IMG/VR virus record: IMGVR_UViG_3300042892_002274
Coordinates: 1 to 28,949 of that record
Length of the DNA: 28,949 nucleotides
Reading direction: 5' to 3' (one strand)
Origin: a virus
The notes beneath the pieces were generated by a model that was given only the letters and a program-made list of their open reading frames with translations, ran no database searches and was not told the origin of the DNA. Shown here one piece after another: positions 5,428-21,589 of the stretch (positions are counted from its first letter, which is position 1; each line of letters opens with the position of its first letter). The position numbers were made by a program, and so were the translations under genes.

Positions 5428-5958
5428 TCATACAATGCGGGTAAACCATCTTGGTAATGTGTACCTATTAGTTCCTGTGACAGTTTTTACTCCGTGAACA
5501 AAATCTGGTGTATCTGGAAAACACACTAAATCTCCTGCCTCTGGTTTAATTATAATGTCTAACTCTGGAAAATAAATCTCACCGCCAGAGTAATTATCAT
5601 TTATATATATAAGGCAGGCAATGTCATTTGTTTTAGTAACATCAAAATGCTCATGCATTGATGCGCCAACTTCAAATCTAGCAATATGATTTAAATTTGA
5701 TACGTAGTCTACAAATGGTCCAGGATAATTTTCTAATACAAAATCATAAACTTTTTTTTGATACTCATTTAAAATTAAAAATTCTTCAGAAACATCTGAT
5801 TTTGCAATACCAGAATGAAATGCTTTAAATTCTTTTTTTGTATTTCCAAATTCTGTAAACTCTGAATCAACGCTTAATGCAAAATTATATAGCATACTAG
5901 AAACTTCTTTTGGCATAAAAGTTTTTATATGCTTTATTTTAGATAAACGATCTTCCAT
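5428..5958 (-). CDS. 2OG-Fe(II) oxygenase, prolyl-4-hydroxylase-like
   Basis: A 176-aa protein with the complete iron and 2-oxoglutarate binding set of the P4Hc fold: H104-F-D106 (in MHEHFD), distal H155 (in DFVHGV) and R165 ten residues later. Between them is the hallmark GGEIYFPELDIIIKPEAGD segment, in which the GGE..F and P..G..v.F strands form the jelly roll. Known relatives hydroxylate protein side chains or small molecules. Many phages carry them next to structural or nucleotide-metabolism genes, with substrates mostly unknown. The start overlaps the nrdJ stop by 1 nt, so it is expected to be co-transcribed and coupled with nrdJ. No truncation is seen. A small-molecule rather than protein substrate cannot be excluded. 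Confidence 0.87.
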   Translation of the reverse strand: MEDRLSKIKHIKTFMPKEVSSMLYNFALSVDSEFTEFGNTKKEFKAFHSGIAKSDVSEEFLILNEYQKKVYDFVLENYPGPFVDYVSNLNHIARFEVGASMHEHFDVTKTNDIACLIYINDNYSGGEIYFPELDIIIKPEAGDLVCFPDTPDFVHGVKTVTGTNRYTLPRWFTRIV

Positions 5959-7988
5959 TAAGAAACCTTAATTTCACAGTAGTCTGTTGTGCAATACATT
6001 TCTCCAACGGAATCAAGATTTTCAATACCGTCATAAATTGCATCAAAGTTAATGTGAGCAACCTTTCCGACATAAGCATCATACTCTTCTTTAGTAATTT
6101 GTGTGTATGGCTGTTGTGGATAAGTATGATTTCCCATTGGAAGGAATGAAACTGCTTTTAATTGACCTTCGTACATATGAAGTGCAGGAGCAATGTGTTT
6201 TGTTTCTGTTTCTTTGTCAAAAGATAAAGTTACAGAGACTCCATTATCTGACCAATATTTTTGTGTAGTTGCAGCAAGACCAATCTTTTCAAAAAGACTT
6301 ACATCTTTTTCTGATCTTGGATGTCCAGAAGATACTGGAAAATATACTACTGTAGTATTTGCTGAAACTAGATCATCTTCAATTTTATACCCTGCTGCTT
6401 TAAATAAATGCAACATTGGATCTGTATTTCCAAAACGAATTGCACGTAAGAAATACTCTCCACCAACAGACCAATGAACTCCTGGAGATGCTCCAGAAAG
6501 CAATGAGACAGATCCTGAAGGCTTTACTGTAGTTACACGAATTGACTCACGAACACATAGCCATTCTGAATATTGCTTATCGTAGTGGCGAATCTTTTTG
6601 TATCCTTCGTCCATCCATTCTCTGGTTGTTGGCATTCCATTGATATCGGTAAATGATGCAATACCAGTTAAAGATGTTCCAATTCTGCGGTTTCTTTGCA
6701 TAATACCGTTTGTAATTTGCCAATGTGTTGGAAGCAATGTAACAGTCTTTCCATAAAGATATGCAAATTTCAAGGTACGCATAAAATCTTCTTTATCTGT
6801 GTGACGATTTAAATGAACTTCAACAAGGGTACAAAGTTCATAAGATTCTAGTGGTTGTTCTGCACAAGGATTAAATCCCATAACACGATAGTCTTTTCCA
6901 TCTGCTGGATCTGCTAATCTTCCATAATTTCTTGCAACATCAAGCCAAATAAAACCAGGCTCTCCATTATCTGCAATTAAATCTACATAATCTTCATAAT
7001 GAGTTCCAACTTCAGCAGAGATAGAGTTATTACTCATCCATGCCCATCCTGGATTTTCTGAATCAAAAGAGTTGCGATCTGGGAATACTTCTGAATTTTT
7101 AAGATTAATAAAATCTTTATCATTTGGATTTCCAAGAGCAAGTGTTGCAGATCTACGAACATTTCCAGAAACAACACAAGTTCCAATAAGATTTACAATA
7201 TCTACAATTGCTCTAGAATCAAACTTCTCTCCTGCTCTAGAACCAATTACTTTACGTATCATTGTATGTAGGTCCATCAATGGTTTTGGACCGCTAGCAA
7301 CCCCACCAAAGCCTTTAATTAGTGCTCCTAGAGGACGTATTAGATCATAGTTAAATTCTTGAATTGGTTGATTTACTCTCAAAAATGAATTAAGTAAAAG
7401 TCTAACAGATTCTACCCATCCTTCACGAGTGTCTGGAATTTCGTATATAGATGCTGGCTCTGTTGGTGCATAAATAGATAGATCTTTTTCTTGACCTACC
7501 GTGTCAAAACCAACTCCAATGCCAAGCATCAGTGCGTCCATAACCCATGAAAATAAAGATCCTGGATCGTTACGGTCAATGTCTCTTGTTGAAACCATTG
7601 CACAATTTTGAAGAGATGCAGAGTTTTTCTTTTCCATTGTCATTGGGGTACCAAAAGCCCAAAGACCTCTTCCTGGTGGAGTCCATTTAAGATTAAACAT
7701 ACGGTCATATGCTTCTTGTGCTGATTTCTGTGCTTTATAGTCATTCCAAGGCAGTCTGTTTTCTTTCGCATGATTCTTTTGCACTGAGTACATGCCTTCA
7801 ATTACTCTTTTACAAACCTCATACCATCTTTCCTTAGTACCATCGTCTTTTACACGGGAATAAGTACGAACAAACGTAATCTCTCCTAATGAGTTTCCAC
7901 CTGCATCTTTGAACCCAAATGGTGGTTCAATTTCAATATATTTGTTTACAAAATCATCAGAAAAGCGAAAAGAAAATACGTCAGACAT
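5958..7988 (-). CDS. nrdJ: class II adenosylcobalamin-dependent ribonucleoside-triphosphate reductase
   Basis: A monomeric B12-dependent RNR of the Lactobacillus leichmannii RTPR type that converts ribonucleotides to deoxyribonucleotides. Visible elements are C129 in SASLQNCAMVSTRD (reducible Cys), the finger-loop motif N373-P-C375-A-E377 (thiyl-radical Cys and catalytic Glu), C386 in SYELCTLVEVHL (partner Cys) and a C-terminal redox pair C666-x4-C671 (CTTDYC) that would regenerate the active-site disulfide. VKPSGSVSLLSGASPG near residue 485 is the usual phosphate-binding stretch. At 676 aa it is slightly shorter than the ~739-aa reference enzyme. The start at 7988 has AAGGAG 5-6 nt upstream and a promoter at 8018-8046. 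The enzyme depends on host or environmental cobalamin and supplies dNTPs aerobically or anaerobically. Confidence 0.96.
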   Translation of the reverse strand: MSDVFSFRFSDDFVNKYIEIEPPFGFKDAGGNSLGEITFVRTYSRVKDDGTKERWYEVCKRVIEGMYSVQKNHAKENRLPWNDYKAQKSAQEAYDRMFNLKWTPPGRGLWAFGTPMTMEKKNSASLQNCAMVSTRDIDRNDPGSLFSWVMDALMLGIGVGFDTVGQEKDLSIYAPTEPASIYEIPDTREGWVESVRLLLNSFLRVNQPIQEFNYDLIRPLGALIKGFGGVASGPKPLMDLHTMIRKVIGSRAGEKFDSRAIVDIVNLIGTCVVSGNVRRSATLALGNPNDKDFINLKNSEVFPDRNSFDSENPGWAWMSNNSISAEVGTHYEDYVDLIADNGEPGFIWLDVARNYGRLADPADGKDYRVMGFNPCAEQPLESYELCTLVEVHLNRHTDKEDFMRTLKFAYLYGKTVTLLPTHWQITNGIMQRNRRIGTSLTGIASFTDINGMPTTREWMDEGYKKIRHYDKQYSEWLCVRESIRVTTVKPSGSVSLLSGASPGVHWSVGGEYFLRAIRFGNTDPMLHLFKAAGYKIEDDLVSANTTVVYFPVSSGHPRSEKDVSLFEKIGLAATTQKYWSDNGVSVTLSFDKETETKHIAPALHMYEGQLKAVSFLPMGNHTYPQQPYTQITKEEYDAYVGKVAHINFDAIYDGIENLDSVGEMYCTTDYCEIKVS

Positions 7989-8756: not shown

Positions 8757-9473
8757 TCATTTGTATGTTTTTCTATTCCAATACCATTTTTTATATCCAC
8801 CAGTAAATCTACTTCTAACTTTATTTGTTTGTTCATTTACTATTTTTATATCAAAATCTTTATTAAACTCTGCTACCCAATTCTCTCGTTTAAATGGAAA
8901 AACTTGCACCAATGGGGTGCCTTGTTTAATTGTTCCTTTAAATCCTTTATCTATAAAAAAAGAAAATAGACCATCTGACATATAACCATCTGTATCAATA
9001 ATTGCAGCAATAGCATGCATTGGCATATAGTCTTGATGTTGTGGTTCCATAAATAAAGAACTGTATCCTTTTTCAGTTTCAACAACCCATCCAATGTTAA
9101 CTCTAAATATGCAGTCTGTAAAAAAATCATAATTAAATGGATAGTGCGATACTTGTTCTTTTGAATGAGATCCAATTAATGGAGTTTTTAATTTTTTATA
9201 ACTATCTGAAATTTTAAAAACTTTATTATCCCCAGTTGTATCAATCTCTATGTCTACTGGACATAGCAACAAATAACCTGTAGTAATAATATCAAAAATT
9301 GCTTGACAATTTTTTATTGTTATTCCATCAATAGGGTTGTTTTCTTGCACAATGTAACTTGGTTGATCTTTATACCATTCTGGTAATTTTTTTGACATAG
9401 GAATTGGCTGAGGAAAAGCATCAATCATTTTTGGATATCTATAATTAAATGTTATTTTTTTCTCTGTTTCCAT
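8757..9473 (-). CDS. conserved phage protein of unknown function, 238 aa
   Basis: A soluble, mainly beta protein. The pattern is recurrent in phage and bacterial hypothetical proteins: KLPEWYKD near residue 30, IKNCQAIFDIITTGYLL, FRVNIGWVVETEKGYSSLFMEPQH in the middle, IAAIIDTDGY, and KGTIKQGTPLVQVFPFKRENW near residue 205. The last stretch resembles the GTPIAQ(V/I)(I/F)PFK signature of a cupin- or dUTPase-like beta fold. I think it belongs to a DUF family (possibly DUF6065), but I am not certain of the accession. It sits between the FN3/Hint protein and the oxygenase-like gene, with 10 nt to the latter. The start is supported by TATAAT ending 5 nt upstream rather than by a ribosome site. Confidence 0.75.
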   Translation of the reverse strand: METEKKITFNYRYPKMIDAFPQPIPMSKKLPEWYKDQPSYIVQENNPIDGITIKNCQAIFDIITTGYLLLCPVDIEIDTTGDNKVFKISDSYKKLKTPLIGSHSKEQVSHYPFNYDFFTDCIFRVNIGWVVETEKGYSSLFMEPQHQDYMPMHAIAAIIDTDGYMSDGLFSFFIDKGFKGTIKQGTPLVQVFPFKRENWVAEFNKDFDIKIVNEQTNKVRSRFTGGYKKWYWNRKTYK

Positions 9474-9484: not shown

Positions 9485-10759
9485 TCAGTAATCAGGACGG
9501 TCAAAGACTAACATGTTCTCAGTAAAGAAGTTATCGTATGGCTCGCAGTTTATAGAAATTTTTTCCATTTCTACATTTACTTCTTCTACTGTTGTAATTG
9601 GTAGCCATGCTTGATGCTCATAATTATAAACCTCATAAGTTGTATCAATATTAGGTGCCTGTATAAACTTAGTAATTCCGTCTTTTTTAACTAAAAGATA
9701 ATGAGCAGGAGTATAAAGGTTTCCATTTATATGAATAAAGTTTTCAGCAGTTCCAGGAGTAACTGACATAACTGTTGTTTCTACAACAAGATCATTATCT
9801 AATTGTATATCAGAAGAACTCCACTCTGTCCAATTTGTTGTTTCATTTCCACCTAAATTCATTGCATAAACTGTATCTCCAACAACCAAATCTTCAATAA
9901 ATTTTGTTCCAGTTGGAGTCAATACTTTTGTTTGCACTGCAAGAGAGTCTCCCCAAACGGAAAATCCAAAAGAGTAAGGCCAAAAACCAAATACGTTAAA
10001 TGCTGGTGCAAAAGCAAATACGCTAAATGCTGGTGCAAAACCAAACACTCCAAATGGTGCAAAACCAAAAACTGCAAATGGAGCAAAACTAAATGGAGTA
10101 AAAGTAAAACTTGTAAAAGTTGCAGATGCTGCAGATGTAGAAGAGTTGCCATTTGCATTTGTTGCATATACTGTATATGCCTGAGCCGTTCCAGCCTCTT
10201 GAGCAACGTTAGCAGAAAGGGTTGATCCGCTTACCGTTCCTGTTTTACTATCATTAGATGCCCATGTATATCCTGTAATTGTACTTCCTCCAGTTGCTGG
10301 GGCTACCCAAGTTACAATATCTGTTGCTGTTTGTGACACTGTATCAATAGTTGGTGCTGCTGGAGTTGCTGGAACTGTTGTTACTGTTACTGAAGAAGAA
10401 GTTGTTCCACTTGCAGTTCCTGAAGCATTTGTTCCCTGTACTGTAAATGTGTATGAAGTATTAGATGCTAATCCTTGAAAAGTATAGGAAGGAGTAGATG
10501 AGCCAGTACTAACTGTATAGGTTGAAGGAGTGGTAGTAATAGTATATCCAGTTGCTGCTGGAGATCCTGCTGGAAGTGTCCAAGTAAGAGATACTGACCC
10601 ACCTGTGCCTGCTGCTGATGCTGCTGAAGTAGTATTAGCGGTAGCAAGATAAGGACGAGATGTTCCTACGTTTGTGCCACTTAAAGAAGTAACGTTATCT
10701 GGTTGCAAAAAGTTATCTTGTGCTGAAGACTTGATACCTCTTTTTTTACTAACTGCCAT
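9485..10759 (-). CDS. FN3-repeat virion protein with C-terminal Hint (intein-like) domain
   Basis: A three-part protein of 424 aa. (1) Two fibronectin type III modules at about 43-130 and 131-216, with Ser/Thr/Gly-rich strands such as SVSLTWTLPAGSPAATGY and SYTFTVQGTNASGT. (2) A phenylalanine-rich low-complexity segment at about 216-268 built from repeats such as VFGFAPF and AFSVFAFAPAF. (3) A Hint domain at 272-424. S272-LAVQTKVLTPTG matches intein block A (nucleophile Cys/Ser), FIEDLVVGDTVYAMN follows it, T350-P-A-H353 is block B TxxH, and DNFFTENMLVFD near 410-420 resembles block G but ends FD instead of HN. Known Hint domains cleave or transesterify at residue 1. This one could self-process before S272 or attach a nucleophile, without splicing (inference). 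The start has GAGGAG 5 nt upstream. Confidence 0.85.
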   Translation of the reverse strand: MAVSKKRGIKSSAQDNFLQPDNVTSLSGTNVGTSRPYLATANTTSAASAAGTGGSVSLTWTLPAGSPAATGYTITTTPSTYTVSTGSSTPSYTFQGLASNTSYTFTVQGTNASGTASGTTSSSVTVTTVPATPAAPTIDTVSQTATDIVTWVAPATGGSTITGYTWASNDSKTGTVSGSTLSANVAQEAGTAQAYTVYATNANGNSSTSAASATFTSFTFTPFSFAPFAVFGFAPFGVFGFAPAFSVFAFAPAFNVFGFWPYSFGFSVWGDSLAVQTKVLTPTGTKFIEDLVVGDTVYAMNLGGNETTNWTEWSSSDIQLDNDLVVETTVMSVTPGTAENFIHINGNLYTPAHYLLVKKDGITKFIQAPNIDTTYEVYNYEHQAWLPITTVEEVNVEMEKISINCEPYDNFFTENMLVFDRPDY

Positions 10760-10790: not shown

Positions 10791-12815
10791 CTATGCTGAC
10801 AAATCTCCCATTACAACCCAAAGATTTGCTGCTCTCTTAAACAATGTTGCTGATGACCATTGTGCACGAAGTTTTAATCCAGGAGTTGCATTTACTGTTG
10901 TTGTTACTGGCGTTGCTGCTTCAATTGTTACTGCTCCAGTATTTGTTCGAAGAATGTCAATTGATGTTCCAATTGGAAAGTTAAAAGTAGCGTCTGTTGG
11001 AATTAAAACCTTAACTGCAGTTCCGCCTGTATGTGAAACTTCAATTAATGAGTCTCTTTCATTTGCTGCTGAAAGGGTGTATTCTGCTGTCTTCTGAATA
11101 ATTGATGTCCGTGATGGAACACCTTCTTTTGTTTGTGTACCGTCGGTAAAAATAAATCCACCAGCAGTTGTACTAATAACTGAAGTTCCGTTTACTTTAA
11201 GATCTTTTCCTGAAGCAAGGTTGATATGCTCGGAAGATGTCCAAGAATCTGTAGAATCTACCCAGTTAAAGGTTTTGTCTGTTGCGCCTTTAAGTGTAAT
11301 ACCTCCGCCATCTGCAGTTGTATCAGTAGGAGTTCCTGTATCTCCAAGAACAATGTTTTTGTCTTCAATAACAAGGTTAGTTGAGTTAAGGTTTGTTGTA
11401 GTTCCATTAATCGTTAAGTTTCCAGAAAGCGTTAAGTCTGTTCCAGATACTGCGCCTGTAAATGTTGCTCCTGAAAGAGAAGCCTTAGCGTCTAACTGTG
11501 TTTGAATTGCAGAAGTAACGCCATCAACATATCCAATTTCTGTTGAAGATACGGTTGAAGAGATACCAAGTTTGGTCCAATCAATTGCAGCAGATGCGTT
11601 AATATCAGCATCAACAATAGTTCCGTCAAGAATTTTTGCAGAGGTAACTGCACCATCTGCTAAATCTCCAACAACAATTGTTCCATCAAGAATCATTGCA
11701 GATGTAACAGTTCCTGAAGGAAGAGTTACTGTTCCTGTGAATGTAGGAGAGGCTAGTGGTGCTTTTGCGTCAATTTGAGTTTGAATGGCTGAAGTTACTC
11801 CGTCAAGATATCCAATTTCAGTATTGTTAACACCTGCAACAACTGCTTGTTTATTATCTAATTGTGTTTGAATAGCAGAAGTTACTCCATCAAGATATCC
11901 AATTTCAGTGTTTGAAACATTTCCAACTATGGCTTGGTATGTATTAGATGCGGTTGTGATACTTAGTTTTGCAGCAAGATCATCAGTAAGTCCTGAAATT
12001 TTTGATTGACTAATTCCTGCAGTTGCTGAAATATCAGCATTAACAATAGTTCCATCAGCAATCATTGGAGATGTAACAGTTCCTTCAGGAAGGGTTACTG
12101 TACCCGTAAATGTAGGATTATTTATTGGAGCCTTAAGTGCATCGGCAGTGTCTACGTATACTTTTGATGCGCCATCTGTATCTGCAGTAGGTACTGGCAT
12201 ATTAATAATTTTTGTAACCAAGTTTAAATCAATATTTCCAGTCATTTGACCGCCTGCTTTTGATAGACGTTCAGTAACATCTGAAACTAATGCTACTGTA
12301 CCTGCTGCGTTTGGAAATTGAATTGCTCTATCTGCTGTAGGTTCTATAACGCTAATTGTTGTTTCATGAGCATCTGCTGTAGTACCTTCAAAAACAATTC
12401 CTGTTGTAGCATTAATTGTTGTGCTGTTAATAGTAGTAGTTGTACCACTTACTGTTAAATCCCCTGAAATTGTAACATCGCCAGTAGAGGAGTTGGCTAA
12501 AACAACTGTTCCTGCTGCATCTGGAAGAATAATCGCTCTATCTGCTGTAGGGTCTGTTACTGATAGGGTAGTTTCAAAACCATTTGCTGTGGCACCTTCA
12601 AAAACAATACTTGAACCAAATTGAGGGTTTGTTGTGCTATCTGCGTCCATGAAGTAATCAAGGCTTAGCCAGTGGTTTGTGCCATCACCAATTTTAAATT
12701 TATTAGTATCTGACTCGTAACCGATTTCTCCGGCTGCAAGAATTGGGCCATTGCCACTATTGGTTGATATCCATTGGGCTGCAGTGCCTCGTCTCTGTTG
12801 CATTCTTGTTGCCAT
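10791..12815 (-). CDS. tail fibre with major-tropism-determinant-like N-terminus, 674 aa
   Basis: The N-terminal ~55 residues (RMQQRRGTAAQW, AAGEIGYESDTNKFKIGDG, HWLSLDYF) match the Mtd_N-type domain found at the start of many phage receptor-binding proteins. The stalk contains repeats: three copies of T-E-I-G-Y-x-D-GVTSAIQTQ (about residues 300, 323 and 420) and repeated TFTGTVTLP(E/S)GTVTS units. A block with SGTTTTINST and DKTFNWVDSTDSWTSSEHI is shared with the 13357-15147 protein. The last ~100 residues (YTLSAANERD...LWVVMGDLSA) are paralogous to the C-terminus of the 19473-20258 protein. It is expected to be a virion-surface fibre. It has a leader with a G-rich ribosome site (AGGGGG). 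Confidence 0.85.
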   Translation of the reverse strand: MATRMQQRRGTAAQWISTNSGNGPILAAGEIGYESDTNKFKIGDGTNHWLSLDYFMDADSTTNPQFGSSIVFEGATANGFETTLSVTDPTADRAIILPDAAGTVVLANSSTGDVTISGDLTVSGTTTTINSTTINATTGIVFEGTTADAHETTISVIEPTADRAIQFPNAAGTVALVSDVTERLSKAGGQMTGNIDLNLVTKIINMPVPTADTDGASKVYVDTADALKAPINNPTFTGTVTLPEGTVTSPMIADGTIVNADISATAGISQSKISGLTDDLAAKLSITTASNTYQAIVGNVSNTEIGYLDGVTSAIQTQLDNKQAVVAGVNNTEIGYLDGVTSAIQTQIDAKAPLASPTFTGTVTLPSGTVTSAMILDGTIVVGDLADGAVTSAKILDGTIVDADINASAAIDWTKLGISSTVSSTEIGYVDGVTSAIQTQLDAKASLSGATFTGAVSGTDLTLSGNLTINGTTTNLNSTNLVIEDKNIVLGDTGTPTDTTADGGGITLKGATDKTFNWVDSTDSWTSSEHINLASGKDLKVNGTSVISTTAGGFIFTDGTQTKEGVPSRTSIIQKTAEYTLSAANERDSLIEVSHTGGTAVKVLIPTDATFNFPIGTSIDILRTNTGAVTIEAATPVTTTVNATPGLKLRAQWSSATLFKRAANLWVVMGDLSA
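11480..11910 (-). repeat. in-gene repeats encoding the TEIGY-x-DGVTSAIQTQ stalk unit
   Basis: Three near-identical ~50-nt units inside the 674-aa fibre gene (about 11490-11540, 11775-11822 and 11855-11912). Each encodes a TEIGY(L/V)DGVTSAIQTQ element. A fourth diverged unit lies in the neighbouring fibre gene near 14495-14545. The repeats are long enough to support recombination within and between the fibre genes. Confidence 0.7.
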
Positions 12816-16483: not shown

Positions 16484-17029
16484 ATGACAACTAATAAGAT
16501 AGTGATTGGAATACTCGCAGCAGTAACTGGAATTGCTTTGTTCTCTAATTCTAGTGCTAATGCTGAAAATAACTTGAGTAGTACCGTGTCAAAAAGTGAA
16601 ACCCAAACCGCTGAGGCGGTTTTTTCAGTTTCTAAGGAAGAAAATAATAAAACTAAGAAAAAGTACAAATATGGAACCCCTCTTGAAAAAGATGAACTAA
16701 TTAAAATATTAAAGTCTGTAGGGTTTGAGGGTTATTCTCTTAAAGTTGCCTGGGCAACAGTAATGAAAGAATCTATGGGTACTCCTAATTCTTGGAATCC
16801 TAATGCAAAGACTGGAGACAACTCTTATGGATTATTTCAAATCAATATGTTAGGATCAATGGGTCAAGATCGACGGGATAAGTTTAACCTAAAGTCTAAC
16901 GAAGACTTATTTGATCCAGTTAGAAATGCAGAGATTGCTTATCATATGAGTGATGGTGGTAAAGACTGGTCTGCCTGGAAGGGCATTACTTGGAAGACTA
17001 AAGAGTGGCTCGCAAGGTATCCTGATTAG
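16484..17029 (+). CDS. secreted lytic transglycosylase / lysozyme-like (SLT, GH23-like)
   Basis: A 181-aa protein. Residues 1-27 form a signal peptide (positively charged start, hydrophobic IVIGILAAVTGIALF, cleavage after ANA). A Ser/Lys-rich linker runs to ~65, then the SLT domain: ATVMKE96S carries the candidate catalytic Glu, followed by NAKTGDNSYGLFQINM, the canonical G-L-F-Q-I-N motif. It ends with W-rich AYHMSDGGKDWSAWKG. It would cleave peptidoglycan outside the membrane. The signal peptide could make it an exported endolysin; a virion role is less likely. AAGGAGG gives a strong ribosome site. It is the only plus-strand gene among minus-strand virion genes and overlaps the oxygenase gene tail-to-tail by 4 nt. 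Confidence 0.9.
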   Translation: MTTNKIVIGILAAVTGIALFSNSSANAENNLSSTVSKSETQTAEAVFSVSKEENNKTKKKYKYGTPLEKDELIKILKSVGFEGYSLKVAWATVMKESMGTPNSWNPNAKTGDNSYGLFQINMLGSMGQDRRDKFNLKSNEDLFDPVRNAEIAYHMSDGGKDWSAWKGITWKTKEWLARYPD

Positions 17030-17613
17030 TAAACAAAACTAACAATTGCATACCTAACACCACCTGTTATTGGCAAAACCTTATGCTGATATACATAACT
17101 TGATGGGAAAAGAAATAGTTGATTAGCCTTTGGCCTAATCGTTAAATTAAACTTGGAAAATTCTATTTCTCCTCCTTCGTAATCGTCATTGCAATAATAA
17201 ATTAAAGACATCCTTCTTGGTGTTTCAATATGATCATCTAAATGATTATTAAAATATTGACCCTTTCTATATTTTAAAACTAAATAGGGTTCGTGAGTTT
17301 TTGTTTCTAGATGAAACATTTCCTTGTAGTATTCTTCATATGGCGTAAACAAATTTTTTAACTTATTTGAAGTTTCAAGTAAAAATAAATCATTTTGATC
17401 TGATTCAAATGGGATGCTAATAGAAAAAACATTTCTTGTAGACAGGTCAATAACCTTTTCTCCATAAGAGTTGTGGGTTCCACCAAATCCCCAATTAAGA
17501 TTTCTTTTTTTTGTTTCTAACTCTAACTCTTCTATAAAATTTTTTGAATCTAGGAAAACATCATCATAAATAAAAAATCCTGGAATTGGTTCTGTATAAT
17601 TAGATAATGTCAT
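17026..17613 (-). CDS. 2OG-Fe(II) oxygenase, prolyl-4-hydroxylase-like
   Basis: A 195-aa protein with all ligands: H124-L-D126 (FNNHLDDH), H177 (YVYQHKVLP) and R187 (GGVRYAIVSF). The strand signature YYCNDDYEGGEIEFSKFNLT and RPKANQLFLFPSS lies between them. The N-terminal helical part (IPGFFIYDDVFLDSKNFIEE) is typical of this phage family. It is the second clear P4Hc-type enzyme in the window and is only modestly similar to the 5428-5958 enzyme, so they are probably not recent duplicates. It follows the 68-aa gene by 2 nt and ends against the lysozyme gene. Its substrate is unknown; neighbouring virion genes make protein hydroxylation possible (inference). Confidence 0.87.
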   Translation of the reverse strand: MTLSNYTEPIPGFFIYDDVFLDSKNFIEELELETKKRNLNWGFGGTHNSYGEKVIDLSTRNVFSISIPFESDQNDLFLLETSNKLKNLFTPYEEYYKEMFHLETKTHEPYLVLKYRKGQYFNNHLDDHIETPRRMSLIYYCNDDYEGGEIEFSKFNLTIRPKANQLFLFPSSYVYQHKVLPITGGVRYAIVSFVY

Positions 17614-18356: not shown

Positions 18357-19463
18357 CTAAACTGACTCTGCAGAAAAATTATCTATTAAAGATCCAGCAT
18401 TTGTACTAGATGGTGTTTTTATAATACCAGCCTTAGTTCCTTTTAATGGACTTGCAGGAGTATTAGTTAGTGTGGTTGCAAAAGCAGAACTTAATCCAGA
18501 ACTTTGATATGCTGTAATTGTAATGTCATCTCCGGAAGTAGATGCTTTAATAGAGTTTGCCTCTACAAATGCACTACTATTAGAATTAATTTGTGTTGTT
18601 TGAACTGTTGATATAGTTCCAGAAACATTTTTATATAATTTTAATTCTGTTAAATATGTTGTACCACCTGCAGCAACATATGTTCCACAATCTCCACCAC
18701 CACTAGTTGAGTTTCCTCCTGGTCCAGCGCAACCATAGGTTGTAGTAGTTACAACTGACTGACTGCAAGAGTCTCCAGTCGCTGGACTATAACTTGAACC
18801 AGTATATATTGTATATGTTGTTGATCCTTGTGATACGGTAGGTGCACCACACCCACTATCGTCAAAACTAGAAAAACATGTATCAAAAAAAGCACTGTAA
18901 TAGCACCCACCAGGACAAGTATATATATTTGATCCTGGGGTTGATGAAATAACATTTGAAACACTTCCACCTGTGCATTGATTTGTTACAGTGCCAGGAC
19001 TGCCTGATGCGGATCCAGTTTGACTCCAAGAACATGCTGTTCCAGCAATAGTTGTTCCACAACCACCAGTGCAAGCCCCAGATACTGGTCCGCCAGAACA
19101 ACTTGATGTACTTCCAGTTGCTACCGTACTGCCTGTGTAGTATGCTTGTGCGGTTGAAGAAGAATAGTTAACAGAACTTGCCCACCAAGAGTTTGCATCT
19201 GTTACCCAAAAAGCAACTCCTGGACCACCATCAGTAATATCAGCAGAAACAGTAACATTCTGTGCTCCTGTTTCAACTGCTGCCAATGGGTAGGTACTTC
19301 CTGCATCAGAGGATGTTGCTTTGTTTGTAGATATTGTCCATGTTCCTCTTGTTGCAGACCACGCTTGTCCTGTATCTGTTGACCCTAAAGAACCATCTGC
19401 TCTATTAAAAGAATCAGTTATTTTACTTAATATTGATGTGATAATTCCAAGTATATTTAGCAT
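18357..19463 (-). CDS. LamG-like adhesin with a cysteine-rich insertion, 368 aa
   Basis: The N-terminal part (ITDSFNRADGSLGSTDTGQA, TWTISTNKA, VSADI, VAFWVTDANSWW) is the start of a LamG/concanavalin-like sandwich seen in many phage and bacterial surface proteins. The same fold resumes at residue ~269 (YLTELKLYKNVSGTIST) and ends TNAGSLIDNFSAESV. Between them, residues ~122-259 hold 12 cysteines in Gly/Ser-rich sequence (e.g. GACTGGCG, CPGGCYYS). There are no cysteines elsewhere in the protein. The insert splits the sandwich and would need disulfide formation or metal binding. It is probably a host-recognition protein. The ribosome site is AAGGA 5-6 nt before the ATG. Confidence 0.78.
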   Translation of the reverse strand: MLNILGIITSILSKITDSFNRADGSLGSTDTGQAWSATRGTWTISTNKATSSDAGSTYPLAAVETGAQNVTVSADITDGGPGVAFWVTDANSWWASSVNYSSSTAQAYYTGSTVATGSTSSCSGGPVSGACTGGCGTTIAGTACSWSQTGSASGSPGTVTNQCTGGSVSNVISSTPGSNIYTCPGGCYYSAFFDTCFSSFDDSGCGAPTVSQGSTTYTIYTGSSYSPATGDSCSQSVVTTTTYGCAGPGGNSTSGGGDCGTYVAAGGTTYLTELKLYKNVSGTISTVQTTQINSNSSAFVEANSIKASTSGDDITITAYQSSGLSSAFATTLTNTPASPLKGTKAGIIKTPSSTNAGSLIDNFSAESV

Positions 19464-20824: not shown

Positions 20825-21589
20825 CTAAGAAATGTGGACTAAGATAGATTTGACTTTTACATCCCCGTCAAAATCTGCTCTAATTTGTGGATTAATACCA
20901 TATTTTCTAATTCTGTCATTTACTATGTACAAGGTTTGAGTAACTGAAAAATCATAAAGATATTTATACTTTAGGTTTGCTACGAACTGTGTTGAATTTA
21001 AAGTTGCTTTTTCAGAAAAGGCTCTTATCCAAACCTCAGTATTATTTCCATATGTTTCTAGTTCAAAACAATAAGTTATTTCAACTCTAGTGCCTATGTC
21101 TAATCCTTTAAAGTTTAATTGTTGATTTGCTGCACTCCATAGACTTACATTTCCTTTTGGCAAATATTCTTCGTTTGTCCCCTCAGATTTTGCATCATTT
21201 AATAAATTTACCCATCCTTCATCTCCGCTAGATAGTCCTACACGAATTTGTGATTGATCTAAATTTTCATAATATGCCCAACCAGACTTTCTATTTTGAG
21301 AAACTACTCCGTTGCTTGCAACAATTGATGATTCTCCTGGTTCTCCCTTTTGTCCTCTTTCACCTTTTGGACCTTGTGGACCAGCATCACCTTTATCGCC
21401 TTTTGGTCCTATCTCTCCCTGTCTACCAGCAATTCCTTGTGGTCCTGGTGGCCCTACAAGTATTCTGTAGTCTATATCGGGCACTGAGGGATTATTTGTT
21501 TCTATAACTGTTTCTGCTACTGCTTCGGCATAGCCATATTTAGGTTTTGATTGCATTCCTGGAATTTCAGACTTTTTACTTATACTCAC
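20825..21589 (-). CDS. collagen-like fibre protein, 254 aa
   Basis: Residues 46-87 are an uninterrupted run of about 14 Gly-X-Y triplets (GPPGPQGIAG ... GQKGEPGES), which would form a trimeric collagen helix. A short N-terminal anchor precedes it. A ~165-residue beta-rich head follows (SGWAYYENLDQSQIRVGLSS, LWSAANQQLNFKGLDIGTRV, YLYDFSVTQTLYIVNDRIRK). Collagen segments are common stalks of phage fibres. The start is GTG, overlapping the stop of the 27-aa ORF as GTGA, and lies six nucleotides after TATAAT. It is probably a receptor-contacting fibre. Confidence 0.87.
   Translation of the reverse strand: MSISKKSEIPGMQSKPKYGYAEAVAETVIETNNPSVPDIDYRILVGPPGPQGIAGRQGEIGPKGDKGDAGPQGPKGERGQKGEPGESSIVASNGVVSQNRKSGWAYYENLDQSQIRVGLSSGDEGWVNLLNDAKSEGTNEEYLPKGNVSLWSAANQQLNFKGLDIGTRVEITYCFELETYGNNTEVWIRAFSEKATLNSTQFVANLKYKYLYDFSVTQTLYIVNDRIRKYGINPQIRADFDGDVKVKSILVHIS

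Follow-up and report, generated by a model that had tools for sequence, protein, structure and literature searches.

Closest described Hint systems

B-type BIL domains share all intein motifs except the last, occur in variable proteins and have been described to cleave at their N-terminal side, and both they and the Hedgehog domains are described as carrying out the N-terminal acyl shift only (PMC7765530). Inteins ending in Asp have been described as well, in a paper that also gives the residues of the intein steps (PMC4031507). In the open-licence literature searched, accounts of Hint domains in phages deal with inteins of packaging or nucleotide-metabolism genes, and none was found that covers a Hint at the C-terminus of a phage fiber.

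Domain layout and gene neighborhood

The window, i.e. the whole 28.9-kb virus record (28,949 nucleotides), carries an ORF at 9485..10759 (minus strand, as for all features of this gene and its two neighbors) that encodes 424 amino acids from its ATG. Together, the ORF, its PF00041 match and a full-length AF2 model give its product the layout FN3-FN3-stalk-Hint. An earlier reading of the DNA alone (the sequence-only reading) had taken it for a virion-type FN3 protein, and the Pfam scan of the window protein bore out the FN3 assignment with a PF00041 match in two stretches (E=8e-12). FN3-like domain 1 comprises residues ~25-126 (10382..10687; PF00041 at 51-120, AF2 beta strands at 25-126), and FN3-like domain 2 residues ~137-210 (10130..10351; the second PF00041 stretch, AF2 strands at 137-208). 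These are followed by a Phe-rich stalk or linker (residues ~211-263, FTPFSFAPFAVFGFAPFG...; 9971..10129), a low-complexity repeat that the sequence-only reading missed, and by the Hint-like domain (residues 272-424; 9488..9946), as delimited by profile matches, the AF2 model and fold matches, with a four-residue tail, RPDY (9488..9499), ending the translation. In the full-length model, the beta domains at 25-126 and 137-210 and a C-terminal beta domain are separated by a low-confidence stalk region (pLDDT < 50 for residues 218-275). Three contigs that differ in sample number share a 100% identical Hint part, which makes an assembly error unlikely.

Upstream lies the gene of a fiber protein with an Mtd_N domain (10791..12815; PF18454, 7e-12), and downstream a gene of unknown function that matches phrog_7084 (8757..9473), both being conserved neighbors by synteny. 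Among the related contigs, the gene before the Hint gene encodes a fiber protein (Mtd_N or g19473 type), and in the majority its successors are a phrog_7084 gene and one for a B12-type ribonucleotide reductase. Some phages of the family have two slots with two Hint-ending paralogs. Judging from this synteny with tail-fiber genes, the window protein is predicted to be a tail-fiber or other virion protein, the neighborhood supporting a fiber role as context.

Hint fold

Taken alone, the window sequence only grazes the Hint models: Pfam Hint_2 was matched at E=0.02-0.1, under the curated cut-off (15.6 vs. 28.4 bits), and the Hint cut-offs were not reached in single-sequence Pfam, PHROG and NCBIfam scans. 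With the single sequence marginal, the family profile was needed to reveal the domain. Counting matches with E up to 1, Intein_splicing was matched by 16 and Hint_2 by 10 out of 27 family members (best 6.5e-6 and 2.5e-6, respectively), and a profile of 27 members matched the solved inteins gp41-1 (1.3e-5) and Aes123 PolB1 (1.5e-4) as well as Tetrahymena BIL2 (1.9e-4) and NrdJ-1. In a phmmer search of PDB, tail fiber gp9 was the top match (E=0.02), which we took as chance, with gp41-1 in second place.

The sequence-only reading had proposed comparing a predicted structure with Hint folds, and an AF2 model of the domain (pLDDT 86.6, pTM 0.82) did match Hint proteins, namely BIL2 (6y75, 1e-7), a C. 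thermocellum BIL (2lwy, 1e-7), inteins and Drosophila Hedgehog (1at0, 1e-5), with all 50 PDB matches listed belonging to the Hint superfamily. FN3 and Hint proteins of uncultured Caudovirales phages were among the nearest viral models. By profile and predicted structure, the C-terminal domain belongs to the Hint (Hedgehog/Intein) superfamily, with BIL domains nearest in fold.

Active-site residues of the family

We aligned 69 distinct domains, 67 of the window's type and two relatives from the annotated-phage collection, and in all 69 the Hint domain forms the extreme C-terminus. The candidate nucleophile at Hint position 1 is Ser272 (9944..9946); Ser occupies this position in 67 of the 67 domains, which form 33 clusters at less than 70% identity, and thus in every cluster. 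Its codons are TCN and, in a single cluster representative, AGY. Position -1 varies freely in the 67 domains (Y, D, N, F, H, E, W, M), which speaks neither for nor against cleavage. The GD turn of block A is Gly294-Asp295 (9875..9880; from the sequence and the family alignment), and block B is T350-P-A-H353 (9701..9712), with His353, i.e. B:10, kept in 67/67 domains. B:7, where TPAH has its Thr, varies in the family, a point missed by the sequence-only reading: it is Ser in 50, Thr in 12 and Val in 5 domains, and thus Thr/Ser in 62 out of 67. The invariance of Ser1 and His353 is not a search artefact, since Ser272 was part of no search pattern and His353 of only one, the motif independent of the C-terminus.

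Aligned to the gp41-1 intein, block F appears rebuilt (S402-I-N-C405-E-P-Y-D409-N-F-F; 9524..9556), with Ser402 at the Asp site F:4, Asp409 at the block-F His site (F:13) and a new, nearly invariant Cys405 at F:7, all of which had escaped the sequence-only reading. The conservation of CEPYDNFFT is inflated, as these words served as search patterns; among the complete window-type members read from an N-terminal query, which is free of this bias, only L211 lacked Cys405 and only L187 lacked Ser1. Both exceptions are C-terminal ends of FN3-stalk ORFs. L187 lacks Ser1 and the block-B His and keeps KCEPYNNFF, while L211 has Thr for Cys405 and a His-Asp-Ser end with a ~45-aa tail, and might be closer to a splicing-competent state.

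At the intein His-Asn site (G:6-G:7), the window has F419-D420 (9500..9505). Throughout the 67 domains, this pair consists of F, Y, L, K, M or W followed by D (59), E (6), N or G, and the +1 residue is mostly Arg, with minorities of Thr, Ser and Ala and no consistent nucleophile. All residues that the sequence-only reading had named, i.e. Ser272, Gly294-Asp295, T350-P-A-H353 and F419-D420 with only RPDY after it, are present in the ORF translation, and the loss of the splicing end that it had read from them agrees with the profile, fold and comparative data. It had further seen a BIL- or hedgehog-type arrangement, and this interpretation is partly supported: profile, fold and comparison put the domain closer to BIL domains than to splicing inteins, while hedgehog-type transfer received no direct support, the sterol-recognition region, Cys1 and block-F Asp being absent.

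Comparison with known Hint classes

The B-type BIL domains and the window domain have the Hint fold and blocks A and B in common, and both lack the C-terminal His-Asn. The window differs by its Ser1, the Ser at F:4, the Asp in place of the block-F His, the new Cys405 and its location in a phage fiber-type protein. By definition, a B-type BIL retains block F, in which the window has lost the F:4 Asp and the His, with blocks A and B kept; by analogy, it may nevertheless work like one. An A-type BIL was rejected on the Phe-Asp in place of His-Asn. The Hedgehog Hog/Hint domain (1at0; fold match at E=1e-5) is likewise C-terminal, lacks His-Asn and keeps the step-1 residues. In contrast to it, the window domain has Ser instead of Cys at position 1 and neither the sterol-recognition region nor the block-F Asp, and a Hog domain is ruled out by Ser1 and by the mere four residues after the Hint.

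With the class 1 inteins (gp41-1, DnaB, DnaE) the window shares the fold and blocks A/B, and Ser272 agrees with the Cys/Ser that this class has at position 1. Unlike them, it lacks His-Asn and a C-extein nucleophile and is fixed at the C-terminus, not inserted; Asp420 is present but followed by Arg at +1 and nothing beyond RPDY, i.e. no C-extein, and class 1 was rejected. Class 3 inteins (Cys at F:4, WCT, no Cys/Ser1), considered on account of the invariant Cys, do not fit either, given that Cys405 aligns with F:7, F:4 is Ser402 and Ser1 is present.

Like the window, the Erwinia/Dickeya jumbo phages (Alexandravirus, Yoloswag) and phage NCTB have a C-terminal Hint on a stalked tail protein, with ~25% identity to the window domain and, in most, a shared (E/D)P(Y/F)D motif. 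Unlike in the window, the stalk is collagen-like, Cys1, the block-B His and His-Asn are intact, +1 is Thr, Met or Ala, and the Alexandravirus type has the block-F Asp. Directly after its Hint tail protein, phage NCTB (L253, 4483-4944) encodes a small stand-alone 'intein domain protein' with His-Asn near the end. The 'large intein domain protein' of jumbo phages (Alcaligenes phage copy) gave no Pfam match and no match to the family profile. A C-terminal self-cleaving fiber domain is, in concept, also represented by the Peptidase_S74 intramolecular chaperones of phage fibers, which have an unrelated fold.

A phage-only family and an exchangeable end

Scanning IMG/VR yielded 35 loci by search patterns and 26 by the motif independent of the C-terminus, and the profile scan gave at least 181 confirmed viral stretches with relatives. 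No relative of the Hint family was found in a scan of cellular genome contigs. As far as sequence comparison can tell, the window's Hint family is a phage-only clade, and no description of it was found in the open-licence literature searched. In a tree of the Hint domains, a quick one with long branches and unsure inner detail, a single starred branch unites the domains of the window's type, among which L187 and L211 are nested, and leaves the other types outside.

Searching with the FN3-stalk N-terminus alone, we obtained 272 related stretches. The Hint profile was matched by 32 of the 64 ORFs read and not by the other 32, one of which (L191) is cut by a contig end. No Hint was present in 27 of 57 distinct ORFs, which end in a bare stalk or in a short, often Cys-rich tail just after it (examples of bare or Cys-rich ends are L154, L160, L161, L163, L173, L175, L182, L189, L214 and L215). 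On a tree of the FN3 part with 57 rows, Hint presence and absence needs at least 13 changes. Other Hint types are found in the same place; they start with Cys1, mostly carry Gln where block B has its His, and close either with His-Asn and a further 1 to 14 residues or at ...LVIS. Ends with Cys1 and His-Asn were seen in L193, L196, L197, L201, L203, L210, L219 and L222, and ends stopping at ...LVIS in L174, L200 and L226; L153 is also listed among the other types. The Cys1/Gln domains diverge too much for their alignment (A4) to serve in a collection scan. One and the same FN3-stalk can carry this Hint, another Hint type, a Cys-rich tail or nothing at all, which makes the Hint an end module that can be exchanged.

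Proposed self-processing and rival explanations

The explanation that we favor, at even chances, is that the domain is a Hint-derived self-processing module that is reduced to the first intein step and frees the FN3-stalk fiber. With Ser1 and His B:10 kept and the G block and +1 nucleophile lost, the domain would be limited to the N-terminal acyl shift, and because the step-3 residues (G:6, G:7 and the block-F His) are changed, cleavage would be expected at the N-terminal side only. After folding, His353 with Thr350 would promote an N-to-O acyl shift at the Asp271/Ser272 bond, and the ester at Ser272 would be resolved by water or another small nucleophile. The mature FN3-stalk fiber (residues 1-271) would thereby be freed from a ~17-kDa Hint end that might first aid folding or assembly and then be disposable. 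We infer the ester formation, the hydrolysis instead of transfer, and fiber maturation as the purpose. The bare-stalk relatives have the look of the proposed cleavage product, and we counted them in favor of autocleavage before Ser272. On the residues present, self-cleavage by the window domain is plausible, and splicing is very unlikely.

An Asp at F:4 assists step 1 in many inteins, and its loss, the residue now being Ser402, counts against self-cleavage. So does L187, which retains the domain without Ser1 and the His, since the fold can evidently persist without catalysis. These are the main doubts about autocleavage, and both fit its chief rival, namely a non-catalytic end in which the Hint fold serves as a C-terminal cap, oligomerization or attachment domain of the stalk and Ser1, the His and Cys405 are held by packing. 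L187 has kept the block-F motif, and the other Hint types mostly have Gln for His B:10 with Cys1 kept, i.e. their active sites are mixed and matched. However, packing hardly explains why Ser1 and the His never change over 33 diverged clusters when the neighboring residue varies freely, and L187 is a single long branch, so we hold such a structural role to be possible but somewhat doubtful. The same invariant columns, along with the conserved synteny, speak against a decaying, functionless relic of an intein or BIL, even though the search patterns inflate some of the block-F conservation. Replacements do affect many of the canonical active-site residues, and we still find decay very improbable.

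With the step-1 residues kept and splicing lost, the nucleophile that attacks the Ser272 ester might instead sit on the surface of the host or belong to a second virion protein, and the FN3 stalk would be covalently anchored, comparable to Hedgehog lipidation. The near-invariant Cys405 and the acidic end could bind or activate an acceptor, and the Cys-rich alternative ends of the FN3-stalk protein might cross-link, but a known acceptor, a sterol-recognition region and the block-F Asp are missing, and we consider such transfer unlikely. Slightly less likely still is the fuller version, a phage-specific mechanistic Hint class (Ser1, His B:10, Cys F:7 and the acidic end) that forms an N-terminal ester and, by Hedgehog-like transfer, anchors the FN3-stalk fiber on another molecule. 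A splicing-competent intein with an Asp terminus has precedents (PMC4031507), and the relative L211 does end in His-Asp-Ser with its ~45-aa tail. The window, on the other hand, reads Phe-Asp-Arg with four residues after the domain, and the family shows no consistent nucleophile at +1, which leaves this explanation barely credible.

What the clade offers is a Hint fixed as an exchangeable end of a fiber-type protein, with an active site that consists of the first-step residues plus a new Cys. The window Hint may trim or anchor the fiber. An active domain would represent a new route by which fibers mature and a compact N-cleaving Ser-Hint tool, an inactive one a rare case of a Hint fold kept as structure.

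Stalk composition and other genes of the window

The stalk repeats of the relatives are FGA, FFPP or HYAGF. An ORF with a Pro-Pro stalk (FFPP, FFAPPG) is nearly always followed directly by one to four 2OG-Fe(II) oxygenase genes, and low-Pro stalks (FGA, FTPFG, HYAGF) almost never stand beside such genes (relatives L020-L027, L116, L119 and L154-L226). In 62 Hint proteins, Pro-Pro stalks and oxygenase neighbors correlate with a Spearman coefficient of 0.80. Among the 57 ORFs with or without Hint, 46 are positive for both, 10 negative for both and one is discordant, using a cut-off of >=2 motifs for a 'PP stalk' that was chosen afterwards, as >=3 misclassified two-motif FFP stalks. There were ~3-4 independent transitions, nearly always concordant, and phylogeny-corrected significance was not reached. 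The association suggests proline hydroxylation of the phage fiber stalk, which would explain it. For cyanophage 2OG-Fe(II) oxygenases, the published idea is an action through 2-oxoglutarate levels (PMC3037559), to which prolyl hydroxylation of the stalk is an alternative. The window itself has two 2OG-Fe(II) oxygenase genes (5428-5958 and 17026-17613; PF13640).

Elsewhere, the window encodes a Cys- and Gly-rich protein of 368 aa (18357-19463) that has no family match in Pfam and PHROG scans, and a collagen-repeat protein (20825-21589; PF01391, 4e-9). Its B12-type ribonucleotide reductase (5958-7988) is 60-61% identical to the enzymes of mycobacteriophage Gaia and the freshwater Actinomycetia phage DSL-LC01, a sequence likeness that hints at an actinobacterial host.
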